In this document: positions 862-9,499 of the stretch, piece after piece | Layout of the letters: every line of letters starts with the position of its first letter | How positions within the stretch are numbered: the first letter of the stretch is position 1 | Assembly (NCBI GenBank): GCA_001803565.1 | Contig: MHDQ01000186.1 | Location: 4,520-14,018 of the forward strand | Direction: 5' to 3' | Length of the DNA stretch: 9,499 nt | Origin: Nitrospinae bacterium RIFCSPLOWO2_12_FULL_45_22 | GTDB taxonomy: Bacteria; 2-12-FULL-45-22 | Made by a program: the position numbers and the translations under genes | The notes under the pieces: model-generated | What the model was told of the DNA's origin: nothing | Databases searched by the model: none | Seen by the model: the letters and a program-made list of their open reading frames with translations, nothing else

Positions 862-1008
862 ATGGGCAGAGCATTTTCCCTACCTAAACTATCCCTGAGA
901 CCTTGCCTGGCAATAGCAGTAATAATCTATCTTCCCTTTCTTATCCCTAATAATAGACTGGTTGCCCCAATCAATAGCTTGGAGTTGACCGATGCTAACT
1001 CACGGTGA
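862..1008 (+). CDS. Small hydrophobic peptide of 48 residues, overlapping the glycosyltransferase start
   Basis: ATG at 862 follows AAGGGGGG (849-856) with a 5-base spacer. The peptide starts MGRAFSLPKLSLRPCL, has basic residues followed by a hydrophobic stretch at about residues 15-28, and then a polar tail. This looks like a signal peptide or single membrane anchor. The stop (TGA 1006-1008) lies 17 bases inside the glycosyltransferase gene, whose own ribosome binding site is within this ORF, so translation of the two is probably coupled. It may be a genuine small membrane peptide, a leader peptide controlling the downstream gene, or the severed N-terminus of an exported protein. I do not recognise a family. 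Confidence 0.45.
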   Translation: MGRAFSLPKLSLRPCLAIAVIIYLPFLIPNNRLVAPINSLELTDANSR

Positions 1009-2965
1009 AATAAATTCTAAAGAGGACGAAAACCGGCATAAGCAAACAAACCTAAATAAGGTCGCGACATTTTTTTGTGGGAAAAGGATTGTATTATCAT
1101 CCATCCTGTTCTTAACTTTCGTTATTCGAGTAATTTACATCAGCCAAACTGCGGATACACTCTTTTATAAAAACCTAGTTCTGGATCAACTCTTTTATGA
1201 TGAATGGGCAAGGGAAATACTTACGGGTAATGGGGCGCGGGAAGGTGTTAACATTATGGGACCGCTATATCCCTTCTTTCTGGTTTTGATATATCGTATC
1301 TTTGGCCAAAGTTTGTATATGGTCAGGTTTATACAAATATTGATAAGCACATTCGCTTGTTTCTTAACATTTATTATTTCCCAGAAATTATTCAATCGCA
1401 CAGTAGGTATCATCTCAGCTTTAATTTTCAGTTGTTACGGGACCCTTATATATTACGATGCCCTCTTATTGGAACCCTCCCTTACAGCATGCCTGACTCT
1501 ATTAATGATTTTATCAGTATTGAAGGCTATAGAGGAAGAAAAATACCTCTATTGGGTTCTCGGGGGAGGGTGTTTGGGATTAGCAGCTTTGGCTCGGCCC
1601 AATATCTTATTATTTGCCGCTGTTATGTTGATCTGGTTTTTTTTCTCGAGAAGGAAGGCACCAGAAGGGAGACCTATTTTGTACGGGGTCAGTTTCTATC
1701 TAGGAATAATTTTAATCCTTTCCCCTATAACCTTAAAAAACTATTTGCTTACCAGAGAATTCTTATTAATAAGCTCTCAAGGTGGCATAAATTTTTACAT
1801 TGGTAATAACCCTCAGGCAAGTGGGACTTATTCTTCCATAGAGAGGGTCTCTGATACCCCGGGTAGACAATTTGTCGATGCCAAAAAGATTGCGGAAGAT
1901 ACCTTAAAGAGAAAATTAAAACCCGCTGAAGTATCAAGGTTTTGGTATTTCCAGGGTCTTGTTTTTGTAAAAGATGATCCTTGGCAGGCTTTATCACTAC
2001 TTATGAAAAAGTTTACCCTCTTTTGGAATGCCGCAGAACTTCCTTTAAATGAAGACTATGAATTCAATAAAAGATTTTCTTCCTTACTGCGGCTCCCTTT
2101 GCCCTCTTTTGGACTAATTGCCCCTTTTGCTTTATTAGGGATTGCCCTATCCCTGCCCAGTTGGAGAAAAGCAAATATGTTTATATTGCATCTTTTTATT
2201 GGTGCTTATATGCTTTCCGTCATCAATTTCTTTATAACAGCACGATACCGCTTACCCATCATACCTTTACTAATTATTTTCGCTTCCTATGCCATCTATT
2301 GGTGCTTAATAAGGGCCGGGGAGAAAAAATGGAGACAAATAGGAGCATTCATTGGATTATTCCTGATCCTTTATAAAATAGCTAACATTGAGATTCTAAA
2401 AACAGATTTTGCTAGTTCCCATATAAATCTTGGTGTCATCTATAATAAAACTGGTATGTTTGATCTAGCCATAAGGGAATTAAAAGAGGCACTCAATGAA
2501 CGTCCAGACTATGCAGAAGCCCATTACTATCTCGGTATTGTCTATTCAAACAAAGGATGGCAGGAACAGGCCATTAGAGAATATAAGCGCGCCTTAGCGA
2601 TAAAACCTAACCTGCCTGAAGTTCACAATAATCTAGGAGTGATATTTAAAGAGGAGCGTCTTATCCAGCAGGCTATAGAAGAGATCAAAGAAGCTATAGA
2701 ACTAAGGCCCGAATATCCGGAGGCTCATTATAATCTCGGGGTTGTGTATGGAGATATGAGATTATACAATGAGGCAATTAAAAAATATAAACAGGCATTA
2801 CAAATTAAACCCAATTTCCCTGAGGCCCATAACAATCTGGGAATAATTTACAGAGAGAGAGGATGGATTAGTTTGGCAGAGGAAGAATTTAAGAAGGCCC
2901 TGGCAATAAAAGCCGATTATGCCGAAGCAGCTCATAATCTCAAGATTATCTATTCCGTGAAATAA
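992..2965 (+). CDS. GT-C membrane glycosyltransferase (GT39/ArnT-like) with C-terminal TPRs
   Basis: Residues 33-52 form the first membrane helix. The following loop carries D65-Q-L-F-Y-D70-E71, the acidic motif expected after helix 1 in GT-C enzymes that use polyprenyl-phosphate sugars. About ten further hydrophobic segments run to residue 462. The family-like ARPN (201-204) and a late RYRLP (418-422) are present. From about 476 to 642 there are five TPRs with an exact 34-residue period (NLG, YLG or NLG at 479, 513, 547, 581, 615), then a short capping helix. Start: ATG 992 has GGAG at 981-984 with a 7-base spacer. The enzyme presumably moves a sugar from a lipid carrier to a protein or glycan on the outer face of the inner membrane; the TPRs would bind a partner or the acceptor. 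The 33-base gap to the next gene indicates an operon. The sugar, the acceptor and the side of the membrane on which the TPRs lie are unknown. Confidence 0.85.
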   Translation: MLTHGEINSKEDENRHKQTNLNKVATFFCGKRIVLSSILFLTFVIRVIYISQTADTLFYKNLVLDQLFYDEWAREILTGNGAREGVNIMGPLYPFFLVLIYRIFGQSLYMVRFIQILISTFACFLTFIISQKLFNRTVGIISALIFSCYGTLIYYDALLLEPSLTACLTLLMILSVLKAIEEEKYLYWVLGGGCLGLAALARPNILLFAAVMLIWFFFSRRKAPEGRPILYGVSFYLGIILILSPITLKNYLLTREFLLISSQGGINFYIGNNPQASGTYSSIERVSDTPGRQFVDAKKIAEDTLKRKLKPAEVSRFWYFQGLVFVKDDPWQALSLLMKKFTLFWNAAELPLNEDYEFNKRFSSLLRLPLPSFGLIAPFALLGIALSLPSWRKANMFILHLFIGAYMLSVINFFITARYRLPIIPLLIIFASYAIYWCLIRAGEKKWRQIGAFIGLFLILYKIANIEILKTDFASSHINLGVIYNKTGMFDLAIRELKEALNERPDYAEAHYYLGIVYSNKGWQEQAIREYKRALAIKPNLPEVHNNLGVIFKEERLIQQAIEEIKEAIELRPEYPEAHYNLGVVYGDMRLYNEAIKKYKQALQIKPNFPEAHNNLGIIYRERGWISLAEEEFKKALAIKADYAEAAHNLKIIYSVK

Positions 2966-2998: not shown

Positions 2999-5900
2999 AT
3001 GTCAAAGAAAGTTCCGGTAGGGGGGCTGATTGGTTTAGCAATATCCTTATTTATTGCGAGCGGGATTTCATCGGCAGAGACCTATGTCAGTTACAATATA
3101 ACGCAAGATACTACTTGGACTGAGGAAGGAAGCCCATATATTATCATCAGGACTATCAGTGTCTACCCATCCGCAACCCTCACGATTAAACCAGGAGTAA
3201 AAATAAAGTTTGATGGCTATTACTCTCTACAGATAGGTGGTACATTAGTTGCCCAAGGTACTTCACAGAAGTATATTACCTTTACTTCCAATAAAGCAAA
3301 CCCATCCCCTGGTGATTGGGATAGAATCTATTTCTTAGACAGTAGCGAAGATGCCCGATTTGACGATGCCGGCAATTATCTCAGTGGTAGTATATTGGAA
3401 TATTGCAAAATAGAATATGGCGGCGGTTCTCGTTATGGTAATATAGGTGTAATTTACGCTGATCAGCCCGCTTCTCCGGCTATCATCCGTAATACTATCA
3501 GCAAAAATGCCAGTGATGCCGTCTATCTGCCGGGAAATTCTTCTTCTATGATCACGAGTAATGTTATCACCGACAACAGCGGACTTGGTATCTATTGTCC
3601 CGGCTCTTCTCTAAAAATTGAAAATAACACGATCTCTAATAATGCGACAGGAATTTGGGGATCAGCAAAATCCATTAGTAATAATTTTATCCATGGTAAC
3701 CGGGGAGGAGGTATCGGGATTGATGCCGATTCAACCATAACAAACAATATCATCCTCAATAATACTTACAGTGGAATCTATATATACTCCAGTACATCCA
3801 TTATCTCTGGTAATAAAGTCATTAATAATGGAGATGATGGAATTCTCGGTACCGAAAGTAACGCTCTTATCGTCAATAATTCTATCATTGGAAACAGGGG
3901 TTATGGTATTAATTGTTATAATGATAAAGTTGAAAATAATACGGTCACAAAAAATAAGGGTGGGATTAAAAATGCCCTTAAAGCCCACCTAAACAATATT
4001 TTTGATAATACGGACTATGATTATCTAAGTAGTACTTCCACCGATGTTGATGCAGCAAATAACTGGTGGGGCACTACTGATACTGCCGAAATAGATAAGC
4101 ATATCTATGACTATTGGGATAATATCACCCTGGGCAAGGTAAATTATCCCCCCATATTAGACGCACCTAACCTGGAAGCCCCACCTCTCCCCCCTACTGG
4201 ATTAAAAGCCACAGTAGAAGATAATAAGATATCCTTGACCTGGAAAAGATCTGAGCAGAACGATTTAGCGGGCTATAAAGTATATTATGATACCGATTCT
4301 GGCTACCCTTATGGCGGCAAGAATGCCGCGGAGGGAGATTCTCCTATAGATGTGGGCAATAGGATAAGCTATCAATTGACCGGTTTATCGGATGGCATAT
4401 ATTTTTTCTCTATCACGGCCTACGATACACAAGGCAACGAGAGCTGGCATTCTGATGAGGTAGAAATTAAAGTAGGGACTGGCGTAGATGCCACCCCACC
4501 ATCTGGCACCATCCTTATCAACGATGGTGCCGAGAAAACCAACTCCATCTTGGTTGATCTAACTTTATCTGCCGCTGATGAAGGGATTGGTATGGGTGAA
4601 GGGGCTCGGATGCGGTTCAGTAACGATAATAAGACATGGTCAGACCTGGAGCCTTATAGCACTACTAAGGCCGACTGGGACCTGAGGGCCTATGGTGGCA
4701 GCCCGGATGAAGGGACCAAGACCGTCTATGCCCTGTTCAGTGATGCTGCTGGCAACTGGATTACCCGGGCCGTCAGTGATACCATTGAATACATCAGTGG
4801 CATAGATACCACTCCCCCCAGTTCTACCATCACTGCCCCCGAAAACGGGGCCACGGTATCCGGTAAGGTCTATACCATCAAAGGGACCGCCACAGATGAT
4901 AAGTCCGGTGTTGATTTGATAGAAGTAAGCACCGATGGCGGGACAAGCTGGCAAAAGGCTACTGGCACCACTAACTGGCAGTATGACTGGACACTGCCTG
5001 CCGATGGTACTTATACTATTAAGTCTAGGGCCACAGATAAAGATGGCAATATAGAGACCCCCGGAGATGGGATTACGGTCATTGTAGATAACCAGGGTAT
5101 CTCTACCCCTACGGGCCTCACCGCTCAGGGTGGGGCCAAGAGCGTTAACCTATCCTGGAAGGCCAATACCGAGAGTGACCTGGCCGGATACAACCTCTAC
5201 CGGGAAATTGACCCAACGGGAAATTATACTACCAAGATAAACCAGGAACTGATAAAGACTACCAGCTATACCGATGAAGCTGTTGACCAGGGGAATACTT
5301 ACTGGTATAAGATAACGGCCGTTGATCTGTCCGGTAATGAGAGCAATAAGTCCGCAGCGGTCTCCGCTAAGGTAGGGGCCATTACCGTATGGATGCCCGA
5401 TATCAAAGGAGAGGCCGGGGACAAGGTAAGCCTGCCGATCAATGTCAGCAATGCTACCGGTGTGGGTTCTACTGCCGCCGGGATAGATATTAAGTTGAAC
5501 TATAACCCAAACCTGCTGACCCCTACCCAGGTCAGCACGACCAACCTGACCAAGGGCTTTACTCTGTATGACAATATCTCCCAGGCCACTGGTCAGCTCA
5601 ATATCAGTGGGGTGAACCGCACGGGTAGTACTATCACCGGGGAAGGATACCTGGTAGAGGTAGAGTATTCCATAAATAGAGAGGCCGTGGAAGGGGCTAC
5701 CGCCACCTTAAGCTTTGTAGAGGTCAAGCTATATGATGATGCTGCCAATTCTTTGACAGTAGATTATACTGATACTGCTACCTTTACTGTAGGGGCGGCC
5801 TATAAGCGGGGAGACCTTAATGGAGACGGTTCCGTGGATTCCGCCGATGCCCTGATAGCCATGAAGATCGCCACCGGGGAGATAGAGCCTAGTAAGGAAC

Positions 5901-7150
5901 AAAAACAAGCCGGTGATATCGATGGGAATGGGAAGATAAATACTGCCGATGCGATCCTGATCCTGCGGATGGCGGTGGGGCTTGATATACATCCCTCTTC
6001 CTCAGTAGCCAGCAATGTTATAAAGGCTCTAAAGATATTTGCCTCTAGCCATACTATAAACGTAACCATTGGAGACCATCCTGGTGAGGCGGGTTCTGCC
6101 ATTACGGTCCCCATAATAATAGATAATCTGGCAGGGGTAGCGGGGGCCGATATCCTATTAACATTTGACCCGGATATCCTTACTGCTACCGGGGCCTCTA
6201 CTACCAGCCTGAGTACTGGCTTTAATCTGCAATATAAGATTACTACTGGGGCTATAGCCATATCCATCCTCAGTACTACCGAGCTATCCGAGGGCAGCGG
6301 CGCCTTTGTCAATGTAGGCTTCCAGGTAAATCAAGGGGCCAATATTGGAGCCAGCACATCCCTTACCCTGGCACAAGCCAGTCTGTATAGCCAATACGGT
6401 AGAGACCTATCCCTAGATCATAGTGTTAAGGCTACTAATGGGAAATTCACGGTAGCTCACAGTACGCCCACTGGCTTGAAGGCCACGGTAGAAGGTAAGA
6501 CCGTGCATATCCAATGGCAGGCAAACAGCGAAGCTGATATTGATCATTACAATATCTATGTGGGGTATGCCTCCAAAGCCTATGACCTGGACGGTAGCCC
6601 ATTTAATGTAGGCAATATTACCTCTATCACTGCCCCAGATGTCCCGGATGGTACTTATTACTTGGCTCTCAGTGCCGTAAATAGTGCTGGCCAAGAGAGT
6701 AGCTTATCGGAAGAGATAAAGCTAGTGGTGGGTGCTAAACCCAGTATTACCATAAGCACTAATAAGGATAGCTATTCCCCCGGCGATACTCTTACCCTTT
6801 CCTTTGCTATCAGCAACCCCACGGCGACTACTCAGGTAGTAGATATTTTTCTTGGCATTATCGCACCAGATGGTAGTATCTACTTTTTTGACTCATCCCC
6901 CTTTCAAAGGAATTTAATCCCAGCCAAGATAGATGATCCCAGGAGCTTTATCCCAGCTAGCACTTCTTTGGAACTGAAGCCAGGATATGATTTCCCCTTG
7001 ATGCCTTTCTTCTCAGTAGCCTTACCCAGCAATCTGCCAGAGGGTACTTATCACGCCTTTGGTGCCTTGGCTGAACCCGGCTCTGTCCAGGCAGGTGCTC
7101 CTAAAATAATTGGGGATATCAGTATCACTTCCTTCGGCTATTCTCCTTAA
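2999..7150 (+). CDS. Secreted beta-helix / FN3 / cohesin-dockerin-cohesin surface protein
   Basis: The start ATG has GAGGA (2986-2990) 8 bases upstream. Residues 1-26 are a signal peptide, cleaved about after SSA-E. Residues 30-395 have the parallel beta-helix pattern: LTIKPGV and ITFTS, repeated N-x-I-x-N-N/G turns, and NNWWG at 354-358. Then follow FN3 (396-490), two Ig-like domains each starting D-x-TPPS (497-599, 603-698), FN3 (703-790), cohesin (795-931), type I dockerin (935-996), cohesin (1018-1153), FN3 (1155-1242) and a C-terminal beta domain (1246-1383). The dockerin has both calcium loops: D939, N941, D943, D950 and D973, D975, N977, D984. No catalytic residues for a polysaccharide lyase or hydrolase are evident to me, so a binding or scaffold role is more likely than enzymatic activity. 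The end is paralogous to the gene at 2-205. Codon usage shifts from AT-rich in the beta-helix to GC-rich after about 4480. Confidence 0.9.
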   Translation: MSKKVPVGGLIGLAISLFIASGISSAETYVSYNITQDTTWTEEGSPYIIIRTISVYPSATLTIKPGVKIKFDGYYSLQIGGTLVAQGTSQKYITFTSNKANPSPGDWDRIYFLDSSEDARFDDAGNYLSGSILEYCKIEYGGGSRYGNIGVIYADQPASPAIIRNTISKNASDAVYLPGNSSSMITSNVITDNSGLGIYCPGSSLKIENNTISNNATGIWGSAKSISNNFIHGNRGGGIGIDADSTITNNIILNNTYSGIYIYSSTSIISGNKVINNGDDGILGTESNALIVNNSIIGNRGYGINCYNDKVENNTVTKNKGGIKNALKAHLNNIFDNTDYDYLSSTSTDVDAANNWWGTTDTAEIDKHIYDYWDNITLGKVNYPPILDAPNLEAPPLPPTGLKATVEDNKISLTWKRSEQNDLAGYKVYYDTDSGYPYGGKNAAEGDSPIDVGNRISYQLTGLSDGIYFFSITAYDTQGNESWHSDEVEIKVGTGVDATPPSGTILINDGAEKTNSILVDLTLSAADEGIGMGEGARMRFSNDNKTWSDLEPYSTTKADWDLRAYGGSPDEGTKTVYALFSDAAGNWITRAVSDTIEYISGIDTTPPSSTITAPENGATVSGKVYTIKGTATDDKSGVDLIEVSTDGGTSWQKATGTTNWQYDWTLPADGTYTIKSRATDKDGNIETPGDGITVIVDNQGISTPTGLTAQGGAKSVNLSWKANTESDLAGYNLYREIDPTGNYTTKINQELIKTTSYTDEAVDQGNTYWYKITAVDLSGNESNKSAAVSAKVGAITVWMPDIKGEAGDKVSLPINVSNATGVGSTAAGIDIKLNYNPNLLTPTQVSTTNLTKGFTLYDNISQATGQLNISGVNRTGSTITGEGYLVEVEYSINREAVEGATATLSFVEVKLYDDAANSLTVDYTDTATFTVGAAYKRGDLNGDGSVDSADALIAMKIATGEIEPSKEQKQAGDIDGNGKINTADAILILRMAVGLDIHPSSSVASNVIKALKIFASSHTINVTIGDHPGEAGSAITVPIIIDNLAGVAGADILLTFDPDILTATGASTTSLSTGFNLQYKITTGAIAISILSTTELSEGSGAFVNVGFQVNQGANIGASTSLTLAQASLYSQYGRDLSLDHSVKATNGKFTVAHSTPTGLKATVEGKTVHIQWQANSEADIDHYNIYVGYASKAYDLDGSPFNVGNITSITAPDVPDGTYYLALSAVNSAGQESSLSEEIKLVVGAKPSITISTNKDSYSPGDTLTLSFAISNPTATTQVVDIFLGIIAPDGSIYFFDSSPFQRNLIPAKIDDPRSFIPASTSLELKPGYDFPLMPFFSVALPSNLPEGTYHAFGALAEPGSVQAGAPKIIGDISITSFGYSP

Positions 7151-7235
7151 TAGTGTTGGATGTAACCTTAGGTTAGATGGCCTTTAAATCCGGAAGAGTG
7201 AATATTTCCGGAAGAAATCCATAGTCCTAGTAGTT
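7151..7235 (+). repeat. 3' flank repeat, copy 2
   Basis: This is the partner of 206-290: it begins with the second stop TAG and includes the identical 22-base block at 7187-7208. It contains the dyad TAACCT (7163-7168) / AGGTTA (7170-7175). The match to copy 1 continues, with gaps, to about 7235. Conservation outside the reading frame supports either a segmental duplication of gene end plus flank or a selected 3' element. Confidence 0.75.
7189..7212 (+). terminator. Possible 3' hairpin after the surface-protein gene
   Basis: TCCGGAA (7189-7195) pairs perfectly with TTCCGGA (7206-7212) around a 10-base loop, 39 bases after the stop. There is no U-tract after it, so it is a poor intrinsic terminator; RNA processing or 3'-end protection is possible. 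In copy 1 the right arm is altered (TTCAGA), breaking the stem, which weakens a conserved-structure reading. Confidence 0.25.
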
Positions 7236-7445
7236 CTTTATTAGGTGTGGACTTCTTACGAGAAAGCTGCCCCCAAGGAATTAAGCAATCCATTAGGTCT
7301 ATCCCCTAATGCCGTCAGAAGGTGTGATATTTGCCCCCCACTAATTCTGCGCGGGCTTCACATTATCTTTTTGATTATTACCTACACCAGCCTTTGTAGA
7401 GATGCCAGATCTATTGTGAATTGTTGTACTGATCGAGCAAGTTAA
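7236..7445. other. Intergenic stretch, no gene seen
   Basis: A forward frame is open from 7245 to 7445, but its product (66 residues, rich in Cys, Arg and Leu) has no ribosome binding site, no recognisable pattern and begins inside the edge of the 3' repeat. I regard it as non-coding. The stretch may include decayed sequence from the duplication or insertion that placed the toxin-antitoxin pair here. Confidence 0.45.
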
Positions 7446-7463
7446 CGCAGGCTAAAGCCTGCG
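7446..7463. repeat. REP-like palindrome
   Basis: CGCAGGC (7446-7452) and GCCTGCG (7457-7463) form a perfect 7-bp stem around TAAA, followed by ACTACCCC. It is a GC-rich island in AT-rich DNA, 26 bases before the antitoxin ATG. The form resembles dispersed REP-type palindromes, which are normally present in many genomic copies; only one copy lies in this window, so that assignment is inference. It could alternatively act as a hairpin near the toxin-antitoxin promoter. Confidence 0.5.
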
Positions 7464-7488
7464 ACTACCCCAAAACCGCATTATTAAA

Positions 7489-7700
7489 ATGAAAATTCCT
7501 ATACTATTAAATTATGGTGGGATGAAGAAGGCCATATTTATGGCATTGATATTATGCCATTTATGGAAGAGTTAGAAGAATTCAAGAAAAATCTAAACAC
7601 GATACGTTTGGGTGGTATTTGGAAAGGTATAAAGATTACAGAGGAAGATATTAAAGAAATACGAAGGGATTTGCTAAAGAAACTTGAGGAGAAATGGTAA
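7489..7700 (+). pseudogene. vapB: VapB-type antitoxin frame with an apparent one-base frameshift
   Basis: The frame ending at TAA 7698-7700 encodes a charged helical C-terminus, with LGGIWKGIKITEEDIKEIRR and then LLKKLEEKW, of the kind seen in small VapB antitoxins that precede PIN-domain toxins. Upstream the same frame reads SYTIKLWWDEEGHIYGIDI, which looks coding, yet it meets TAA at 7485-7487 without a start codon. ATG 7489 is one base out of phase: it is followed by AAAA, and one more A would give a continuous 70-residue protein beginning MKNSYTIKLWW. So there is a deletion, a sequencing or assembly error, or slippage at the A run. The internal ATGs at 7554 and 7563 would give 48 or 45 residues, but neither has a ribosome binding site. 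Expected role: bind and neutralise the toxin and repress their shared promoter. Family name is inferred mainly from context. Confidence 0.6.
7686..7691 (+). promoter_or_regulatory. Ribosome binding site that fixes the toxin start at 7700
   Basis: GAGGAG lies inside the last antitoxin codons. It is only 2 bases from ATG 7694 but 8 bases from ATG 7700, the usual distance. The second ATG is therefore preferred. It overlaps the antitoxin stop as TAATG, a classic translational coupling arrangement. Confidence 0.65.
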
Positions 7701-8089
7701 TGCCCTTTGTTACCGACACTCACTCTTTAGTTTGGCATATAACGGATAATCCTAAACTTTCCACCGAAGCGAGAGAGATTTTTCAAAAAGTGGATAATTT
7801 TCAGGATTATATTTTCATTCCTTGTATTGTCTTTTTTGAATTACTCTATCTCATCGAAAAGAAAAGGATTGTTGCTGATTTTGATAGTTTTCTTGCAATG
7901 GTATCTTCAGCGAAGAATTATAGGATAGAGCCGTTATGTCTGCCAATAATTGAAAAAAGTAAAAGAATCCCCAAAAGGGTGTCCGATCCTTGGGATAGAT
8001 TAATTGCTGCTACCTCAATGCATTTGAATTTCCCTTTGATAACTCGGGATGAGACCCTGAGAGAGATAGGGTTGGAGGTTATATGGTGA
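7700..8089 (+). CDS. vapC: VapC-type toxin, PIN-domain ribonuclease
   Basis: The 129-residue product has the size and order of a PIN-domain toxin. D6 is in the opening strand (VTDTHSLVW), E47 in FFELLYL, D96/D99 in SDPWDRLIAAT, and D117 in ITRDETL; together these make the acidic pocket that binds Mg2+ or Mn2+. PIN toxins of this type cleave RNA (tRNA, rRNA or mRNA, depending on the member); the target here cannot be told. I chose ATG 7700 over ATG 7694 because of ribosome binding site spacing and the TAATG junction with the antitoxin. The active-site residues all appear intact, although the antitoxin frame upstream seems broken, an unstable combination if both are read literally. The DTHSLVWH opening is typical of one large VapC subgroup. 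Confidence 0.87.
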   Translation: MPFVTDTHSLVWHITDNPKLSTEAREIFQKVDNFQDYIFIPCIVFFELLYLIEKKRIVADFDSFLAMVSSAKNYRIEPLCLPIIEKSKRIPKRVSDPWDRLIAATSMHLNFPLITRDETLREIGLEVIW

Positions 8090-8370
8090 CAGGCCCGGCA
8101 CAGCGTATAACACGGTCTATGGGGAAAATGGATGAACAATTGTCCGTCAGAGACGGTTGTATAATTACCTCCTTTTCCTCTAGGGTTCTTTCCCAGAAAA
8201 AATCTCCTTTCAACTCTTCTTTACCCACCAAAAACTAGACCACTAATCTAATTGATGATATCCTTAATTCCCTAAATGCCTTTGACCGAGGATCGCTGAA
8301 TACGGGATATAGCTTGTTAAATGAGGGGATTTGTGGTTTAATTAATAAATTACTATAGAGTTATATCAGA
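8090..8370. other. Intergenic stretch between the toxin and queD-like genes
   Basis: No convincing gene is present. A 36-codon frame from ATG 8128 has poor ribosome binding site spacing and no recognisable features. A weak hairpin (8136-8160) follows the toxin gene. No preQ1 riboswitch motif was found in front of the queD-like gene, which is relevant because queuosine genes often carry one. Confidence 0.5.
8136..8160 (+). terminator. Weak hairpin after the toxin gene
   Basis: CCGTC (8144-8148) pairs with GACGG (8152-8156) around AGA, and outer ACAA (8136-8139) can pair with TTGT (8157-8160) across a bulge. It is followed by ATAATTACC rather than a run of T, so it may only pause or protect the toxin-antitoxin transcript. 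Confidence 0.2.
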
Positions 8371-8376
8371 TATAAT
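8371..8376 (+). promoter_or_regulatory. Candidate -10 element before queD-like gene
   Basis: A perfect TATAAT lies 15 bases upstream of ATG 8392, in AT-rich sequence. No good -35 hexamer is found at 16-18 bases (the region reads about AATTAC or TTACTA). If used, transcription would start near 8383, after the GTG at 8380 and giving a very short leader, which favours ATG 8392 as the start codon. Confidence 0.3.
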
Positions 8377-8391
8377 CTCGTGAGAAAAGCT

Positions 8392-8775
8392 ATGTATGCG
8401 CTTACTGTGAAGTCGGGATTTGCTGCCGCTCATCAACTGCGGGGTTATCAAGGGGCTTGCGAAAACCTGCATGGCCACAATTGGAAAGTGGAAGTAACCA
8501 TCATGGCCAACAAATTAAATGAACTAGGCATAGTAATAGATTTCCGGGAGATAAAACGGGTATTAGATGGAGTCCTGGAGAGCCTGGATCATAAGAATCT
8601 AAGCGACCTAGAACCCTTTAAAAAAGCTAATCCTACCTCGGAGAATATTTGCGCCTGGCTATTCCAGGAGTTGGATAAAAGATTATCTTCTCGAGACCTT
8701 AAAGTAAATAAGGTTACCGTCAGAGAAACGGATAATTATGCTGCCTCGTATTACCGACAAGCATCTGAGCCATAA
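8392..8775 (+). CDS. queD: 6-carboxytetrahydropterin synthase / PTPS family protein (QueD-like)
   Basis: The 127-residue product covers the whole family. Zinc ligands are H14 (AAAHQL) and H27, H29 (LHGHNW). The nucleophile is C23 (GACENLHGH), with the D66-H67 pair in SLDHKNL and E112 in VRETDN for pterin binding; PTSEN (81-85) is also family-typical. QueD converts 7,8-dihydroneopterin triphosphate to 6-carboxy-tetrahydropterin, the second step towards preQ0 and queuosine; the cytosolic fold is a homo-oligomeric T-fold. The C-x-x-x-HGH spacing fits QueD better than folate-shunting PTPS-III, where the Cys is replaced by Glu. No other queuosine gene is in the window, so the pathway call rests on family residues. 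A GTG at 8380 would add four residues; ATG 8392 aligns with the usual family N-terminus and with the nearby -10 candidate. The next gene overlaps its last 38 bases. Confidence 0.85.
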   Translation: MYALTVKSGFAAAHQLRGYQGACENLHGHNWKVEVTIMANKLNELGIVIDFREIKRVLDGVLESLDHKNLSDLEPFKKANPTSENICAWLFQELDKRLSSRDLKVNKVTVRETDNYAASYYRQASEP

Positions 8776-9499
8776 TAAAAAAATAGAGCAATTATTGAAT
8801 GAGTTCTTACCACCCTCTTATTACCAGGTTTTAAGGGGGGCGAACGAGATAGCCAACGAGCTGGGGTATCCCATTTATTTAGCCGGAGGCTCAGTACGGG
8901 ATTGGCTCATGGGCAAAGCAAACCTCGATCTGGACCTCGTGGTAGAAGGGGATGGCCTGATTTTTACCGAATATTTAGCCACCCGGCTCAGGACAAAATA
9001 CCAGCTCCATAAGAGGTATTTGACCGCTACTATTTTTTTACCCGGGTCTTTCAAGCTCGATATTGCAACTACCAGGACAGAATACTATCCCCATCCCGCT
9101 GCCTTGCCTAGAGTGCGAAAAGGTACCTTGAAGGAAGACCTCTTCCGGCGAGACTTTACTATTAATACGCTGGCTATAAGGATTAATGGGCCCGAGGCAC
9201 CTTATTTGGTAGATTTTTTTGGTGGGGAGAAAGACCTGCATGAAGGCATTATCAAGGTATTACATCCCCTCAGTTTTGTAGATGATCCCACCCGGATACT
9301 AAGGGCCCTTCGGTTCGAACAGCGCTTTGATTTTTCCCTGGAAAGTGACACCCTGGACTATCTCAGAAAGGCCGTTGAGAAAGCGTATCTCGCCCAGGTA
9401 AAAGGAGCCAGGTTTTTCCAGGAACTCTTTCTTATCCTAAGCGAAAATAGGCCCCTAAAAGTTATCCAGCGCATGTCTGATTTTGACCTCTTAAGGTCT
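8738..9499 (+). CDS. Class II tRNA CCA-adding enzyme / poly(A) polymerase family, 3' truncated by window
   Basis: 254 codons are visible with no stop. The nucleotidyltransferase head has GGSVRD (50-55) and D64-L-D66 followed by LVVEGD, the two carboxylates that bind metal. The base and ribose recognition motifs RRDFTIN (137-143) and DDPTRILRALRFEQRF (182-197) follow. Such enzymes add or repair CCA (or only A, or only CC, in split-function species) on tRNA 3' ends; the specificity is not readable here. The visible part does not start with DHH or CBS domains, so it is not the long fused form at its N-terminus. Start is uncertain: ATG 8738 lies 38 bases inside the queD-like gene with a weak upstream GAGA, while in-frame TTG 8795 is an alternative that would avoid the overlap. 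Overlap implies co-transcription with the upstream gene. Confidence 0.85.
   Translation, partial: MLPRITDKHLSHNKKIEQLLNEFLPPSYYQVLRGANEIANELGYPIYLAGGSVRDWLMGKANLDLDLVVEGDGLIFTEYLATRLRTKYQLHKRYLTATIFLPGSFKLDIATTRTEYYPHPAALPRVRKGTLKEDLFRRDFTINTLAIRINGPEAPYLVDFFGGEKDLHEGIIKVLHPLSFVDDPTRILRALRFEQRFDFSLESDTLDYLRKAVEKAYLAQVKGARFFQELFLILSENRPLKVIQRMSDFDLLRS

Follow-up and report, generated by a model that had tools for sequence, protein, structure and literature searches.

The gene at positions 2999 to 7150 of the window (the whole stretch of DNA analysed here, 9,499 nucleotides) encodes a secreted modular protein of 1383 residues in which a type I dockerin lies between two cohesins. These modules share one open frame, with no cellulosome around them, and all three are genuine docking modules. 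From sequence features we estimate, at slightly under one in two, the probability that the protein docks onto itself, between or within copies. Outside cellulosomes, cohesin and dockerin modules occur widely, and their roles are mostly obscure. If the window protein does link to itself, it would show concretely what a large class of surface proteins does, and a genome with two apparently self-contained cohesin-dockerin loci (three cohesins, two dockerins) offers a simple test case.

From the N-terminus, the chain is composed of a signal peptide, a beta-helix, Ig- and FN3-like domains, cohesin 1, the dockerin, cohesin 2, a further FN3-like domain and a C-terminal Ig-like domain. The coordinates of the cohesins and the dockerin come from profile searches of the whole genome and agree with residues 795-1153, where the original prediction had placed them. 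The features are as follows, with the evidence for each in parentheses.

992..2965, plus strand: PMT_2-type membrane glycosyltransferase with TPR repeats (Pfam; ends 33 nt upstream of the 2999-7150 gene)
2999..7150, plus strand: whole gene, secreted modular protein, 1383 aa (open reading frame, Pfam)
2999..3076, plus strand: Sec-type signal peptide, MSKKVPVGGLIGLAISLFIASGISSA (read by eye from the sequence)
3446..4108, boundaries approximate, plus strand: right-handed parallel beta-helix, PF13229 / NosD-like (Pfam Beta_helix, 7e-24; TIGR03804)
4172..4468, plus strand: FN3-like domain, a Pfam DUF4998 match that resembles the C-terminal FN3-like domain (Pfam and self-similarity)
4817..5023, plus strand: bacterial Ig domain Big_7 (Pfam, 2.5e-11)
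5105..5380, plus strand: FN3-like domain (self-similarity to the C-terminal FN3-like domain)
5393..5758, plus strand: cohesin 1, PF00963 (profile, 47.9 bits; fold match, Z 16.3 to 4uyp_A/4uyq_A)
5810..5962, plus strand: type I dockerin, PF00404, both calcium loops intact (profile, 47.1 bits; ligand positions)
6056..6451, plus strand: cohesin 2, PF00963 (profile, 49 bits; phmmer, 5.7e-6 to 4uyp_A)
6461..6727, plus strand: FN3-like domain (common to the paralogues, together with the C-terminal domain)
6728..7147, plus strand: C-terminal Ig-like domain, 140 aa (about 20 other proteins of the same genome; pTM 0.74; RbmA-like fold, Z 11.8)

The Pfam Cohesin model matches the 1383-residue protein over two stretches with an E-value of 4.9e-20 and 72.6 bits (curated cut-off 24.1), and Dockerin_1 matches with 1.4e-10 and 41.7 bits (curated cut-off 22.9). 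The two cohesins align with a score of 201, compared with 45 ± 8 for shuffled sequences (shuffle z 19.7), and by this measure are clearly homologous to each other. An AlphaFold model of cohesin 1 adopts the jelly-roll fold and superimposes on the type I cohesin 4uyq_A with a Z of 16.3 and an rmsd of 2.4 over 137 residues; 4uyq_A and 4uyp_A are type I cohesins whose structures were solved with bound dockerins. The same model also aligns with non-cellulosomal cohesins of Clostridium perfringens and Archaeoglobus, and the cohesin fold of cohesin 2 is supported by a phmmer match of its sequence to 4uyp_A. For residues 795-1153 modelled alone, the top Foldseek match is the cohesin dyad 3l8q. In that model (mean pLDDT 72, pTM 0.42) the individual domains are good and their placement relative to one another is unreliable; the underlying alignment held three sequences over cohesin 1 and the query alone over cohesin 2.

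Both calcium loops of the dockerin are complete, with Asp, Asn, Asp, Asp and Asp at ligand positions 1, 3, 5, 9 and 12 of loop 1 and Asp, Asp, Asn, Asn and Asp at the same positions of loop 2. The recognition residues are nearly symmetric (S-A/T-A at 10/11, M-K/L-R at 17/18 and G at 22), as in dual-binding dockerins, the positions being taken from PMC3413522; the specificity is read from these few positions only. The original prediction of one type I dockerin with intact calcium loops between two cohesins is thus borne out, with profiles above their cut-offs and all ligand positions kept. The cohesins are type I-like and the dockerin is type I, and each is a candidate for binding its counterpart.

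Above the curated cut-offs, a whole-genome profile search found no more than three cohesins and two dockerins, which fall into two loci; relaxing the threshold to E ≤ 10 added no cohesin and just three short dockerin-like scraps, none convincing. Because the assembly (3.67 Mb in 321 contigs) is 85% complete, more partner modules may be missing from it. The partner modules envisaged elsewhere in the genome did turn up, as one dockerin and one cohesin, both on contig C305 (locus L007, G000:C305). The dockerin directly follows the signal peptide of an RHS/YD-repeat protein of 2090 residues (8738-15010) that also bears CBM30-like domains. The cohesin belongs to a secreted 310-residue protein, encoded 66 nt after the RHS gene (15077-16009), that consists of one cohesin and a C-terminal domain of the window type. 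These two proteins likely form an anchor pair that displays the RHS protein at the surface. Two genes for family 2 membrane glycosyltransferases (6986-8725 and 16105-17232) flank the pair.

Cohesins and a dockerin on a secreted protein, together with the CBM30-like domains of the RHS protein, could be taken to indicate the scaffoldin of a cellulosome-like, polysaccharide-degrading complex. We consider this highly improbable, given that the genome has just two dockerins, neither of them on a hydrolase, and that the window protein has no cellulose-binding module. The cellulosome reading was rejected on the absence of any dockerin-bearing hydrolase from the 85% complete assembly, in which the sole other dockerin is that of the RHS protein. 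Pfam likewise finds no catalytic family on the 1383-residue chain, in agreement with the original prediction, and its matches there include neither a cellulose-binding module nor an SLH anchor. The further claim of a surface protein unrelated to cellulose breakdown is also supported, as the protein has no catalytic domain and the genome's other dockerin is on an RHS protein and not a glycoside hydrolase.

With partner modules present in the genome, the protein could instead be a heterotypic adaptor scaffoldin, its cohesins recruiting other dockerin proteins such as the C305 RHS protein and its dockerin fitting into the cohesin of another, anchoring protein, for example the small one on C305. 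The latter carries the C-terminal domain of the window protein, and the scaffoldins ScaN and ScaK, which combine cohesins with a type I dockerin in a single chain, have been proposed as adaptors (PMC6780208). However, the two dockerins of the genome differ in their recognition residues (L-D and M-E at 10/11 in the RHS dockerin, S-A and T-A in that of the window), the cohesin on C305 is only distantly similar to cohesins 1 and 2 (shuffle z of 5.5 and 4.1, compared with 19.7 for the 1-2 pair), and both loci contain a cohesin and a dockerin of their own, so that an adaptor role is somewhat unlikely. Given the differing recognition residues and the distant C305 cohesin, two self-contained pairs are the simplest reading, in which case the cognate cohesin of the window dockerin would most simply be its own.

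We therefore favor self-docking, to which the intact calcium loops, the near-symmetric recognition residues, the scarcity of other modules in the genome and the presence of a cohesin close to the RHS dockerin all point. Under this model the gene product would be secreted and belong to the surface or matrix, independently of any cellulosome, with the beta-helix facing outward and the cohesin-dockerin-cohesin module near the C-terminus. Its dockerin would bind, in a calcium-dependent manner, a cohesin of the same protein species. Docking could take place in trans, to another copy, joining copies into chains or a network, which might amount to the calcium-dependent surface lattice of the original prediction. 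Alternatively, it could take place in cis, with the dockerin engaging one of the two neighbouring cohesins of its own chain.

The arrangement is also found in other genomes. Cohesins occur in 59 of 290 sampled genomes and dockerins in 78 of the 290. Among 117 listed dockerin frames, a set that leaves aside the dockerins of one very dockerin-rich genome, at least 19, from at least 11 genomes, also bear a cohesin, in most cases separated from the dockerin by 9 to 57 residues. At five loci (L039, L040, L048, L066 and L067) in four genomes of different families, Pfam detected a dockerin and two cohesin stretches ahead of a type IX sorting tail; the cohesin-dockerin-cohesin order at these loci was read from the sequences, and at L048 and L066 the dockerin score falls short of the curated cut-off. 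The passengers of cohesin-dockerin chains with type IX tails include WD40, Kelch, laminin-G, alkaline-phosphatase, subtilase and beta-helix domains. Such variety ahead of the sorting tails suggests that the cassette behaves as a portable C-terminal stem, and its recurrence under unrelated passengers beside these tails fits a role in surface assembly. With cohesin-dockerin(-cohesin) cassettes also at L121-L140, the arrangement looks more general than the window protein. A distant-relative scan of genome contigs with the single protein as query returned mostly clostridial dockerins. Scans of viral contigs found no relatives, and the one other genome of the same phylum that was searched gave no match.

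The cassette could also be a stalk only: a rigid stem, perhaps closed in cis, built from the cohesin-like domains together with the calcium-loaded dockerin, which spaces the beta-helix from the cell and docks to no other molecule. The modules are indeed closely spaced, with 17 residues between the profile matches of cohesin 1 and the dockerin and 31 between those of the dockerin and cohesin 2, and this cassette is also found ahead of sorting tails in proteins with such unrelated passengers as WD40, Kelch, laminin G and alkaline phosphatase. Near-symmetric recognition sides and intact calcium loops would nevertheless be superfluous for a mere spacer, and strong binding has been verified for archaeal non-cellulosomal cohesin-dockerin pairs (cited in PMC9012536). 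On balance, we find a pure spacer about as unlikely as an adaptor and retain self-docking. In a broader version of self-docking, several bacterial lineages would use the cohesin-dockerin(-cohesin) cassette as a general C-terminal 'self-linking stem' for their surface proteins. Calcium-dependent docking of copies to one another would then produce a surface network with no part in polysaccharide breakdown, and in the window protein a lineage-specific Ig-like domain would stand in place of the type IX tail. This generalization is distinctly unlikely.

In published systems, the partner cohesin of a scaffoldin-borne dockerin usually resides on another protein. Within single chains, cohesins and dockerins occur together in the scaffoldins of Acetivibrio cellulolyticus (PMC3413522), and ScaO1 of Clostridium alkalicellulosi is tabulated as Peptidase-PPC-Coh1-Doc1-Coh2-RhsA (PMC6780208). 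Like the window protein, ScaO1 and the related ScaO/ScaP scaffoldins (PMC6780208, PMC3413522) have a dockerin flanked by two cohesins and accessory domains of the surface type. ScaO1 differs in its mix of type I and type II cohesins, its peptidase and the full cellulosome of its genome, whereas the window protein combines a pair of related type I-like cohesins with a beta-helix and has neither a peptidase nor a cellulosome around it. Thus, the contrast that was originally drawn with classical cellulosomes is fair and the novelty it implied is not, since ScaO1 was already published and the arrangement recurs in several bacterial families. Cohesin-dockerin-cohesin proteins are a known type, to which the window protein belongs.

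In ANME archaea, a single protein can combine one dockerin with as many as five cohesins (PMC9012536), and the cohesin/dockerin proteins of their bacterial partners, syntrophic sulfate reducers, are proposed to be adhesins (PMC10553843). When compared by module content, these proteins resemble the window protein in being non-cellulosomal and, in ANME, in carrying one dockerin and several cohesins per chain; an adhesin or extracellular-assembly role has been proposed for them, and their lineages and passengers differ from those of the window protein. The non-cellulosomal cohesins of Clostridium perfringens (2vo8, 2jh2 and 2w1n, the last with an adjoining FN3 domain) are close fold matches but, unlike those of the window protein, are carried by glycoside hydrolases. 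In the type IX proteins (L039, L040, L048, L066, L067, L130, L132, L134, L135 and others) the cassette lies, as in the window protein, near the C-terminus before a C-terminal domain, and L135 shares the beta-helix passenger. Those proteins end in Por_Secre_tail/FlgD_ig, whereas the window protein has its own Ig-like C-terminal domain instead.

This C-terminal domain (residues 1244-1383) is shared by about 20 further open frames of the genome (loci L009-L031) with up to 79% identity, nearly always abutting the stop codon. No Pfam model matches it above cut-off, and its predicted structure (pTM 0.74) is an Ig-like sandwich. The top fold match is the Vibrio cholerae biofilm scaffold RbmA (Z 11.8, rmsd 2.4, 106 residues), at about 15% identity and with other Ig-like proteins at Z 9-11, so that the likeness in fold stops short of indicating a shared function. 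Weaker relatives were found in 5 of 386 sampled genomes, sometimes away from the C-terminus and with many copies in one family. Its probable role is to attach the protein to the cell surface or matrix. The domain was also considered as a type IX sorting tail, a candidate that was rejected because PF18962 has no match in the whole genome.

The PMT_2 glycosyltransferase gene upstream is possibly co-transcribed with the 2999-7150 gene, and its product might glycosylate the beta-helix/cohesin surface protein. On the 3′ side lie ordinary genes, for a PIN-domain protein (7694-8089) and members of the 6-pyruvoyl-tetrahydropterin synthase (8380-8775) and CCA-adding/poly(A) polymerase (8738-9499) families. 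Further upstream, a paralogue with BNR, Ig, FN3-like and C-terminal domains (L006, 931-4575) is broken in the assembly by a stretch of N, and its tail resumes at positions 2-205 of the window.
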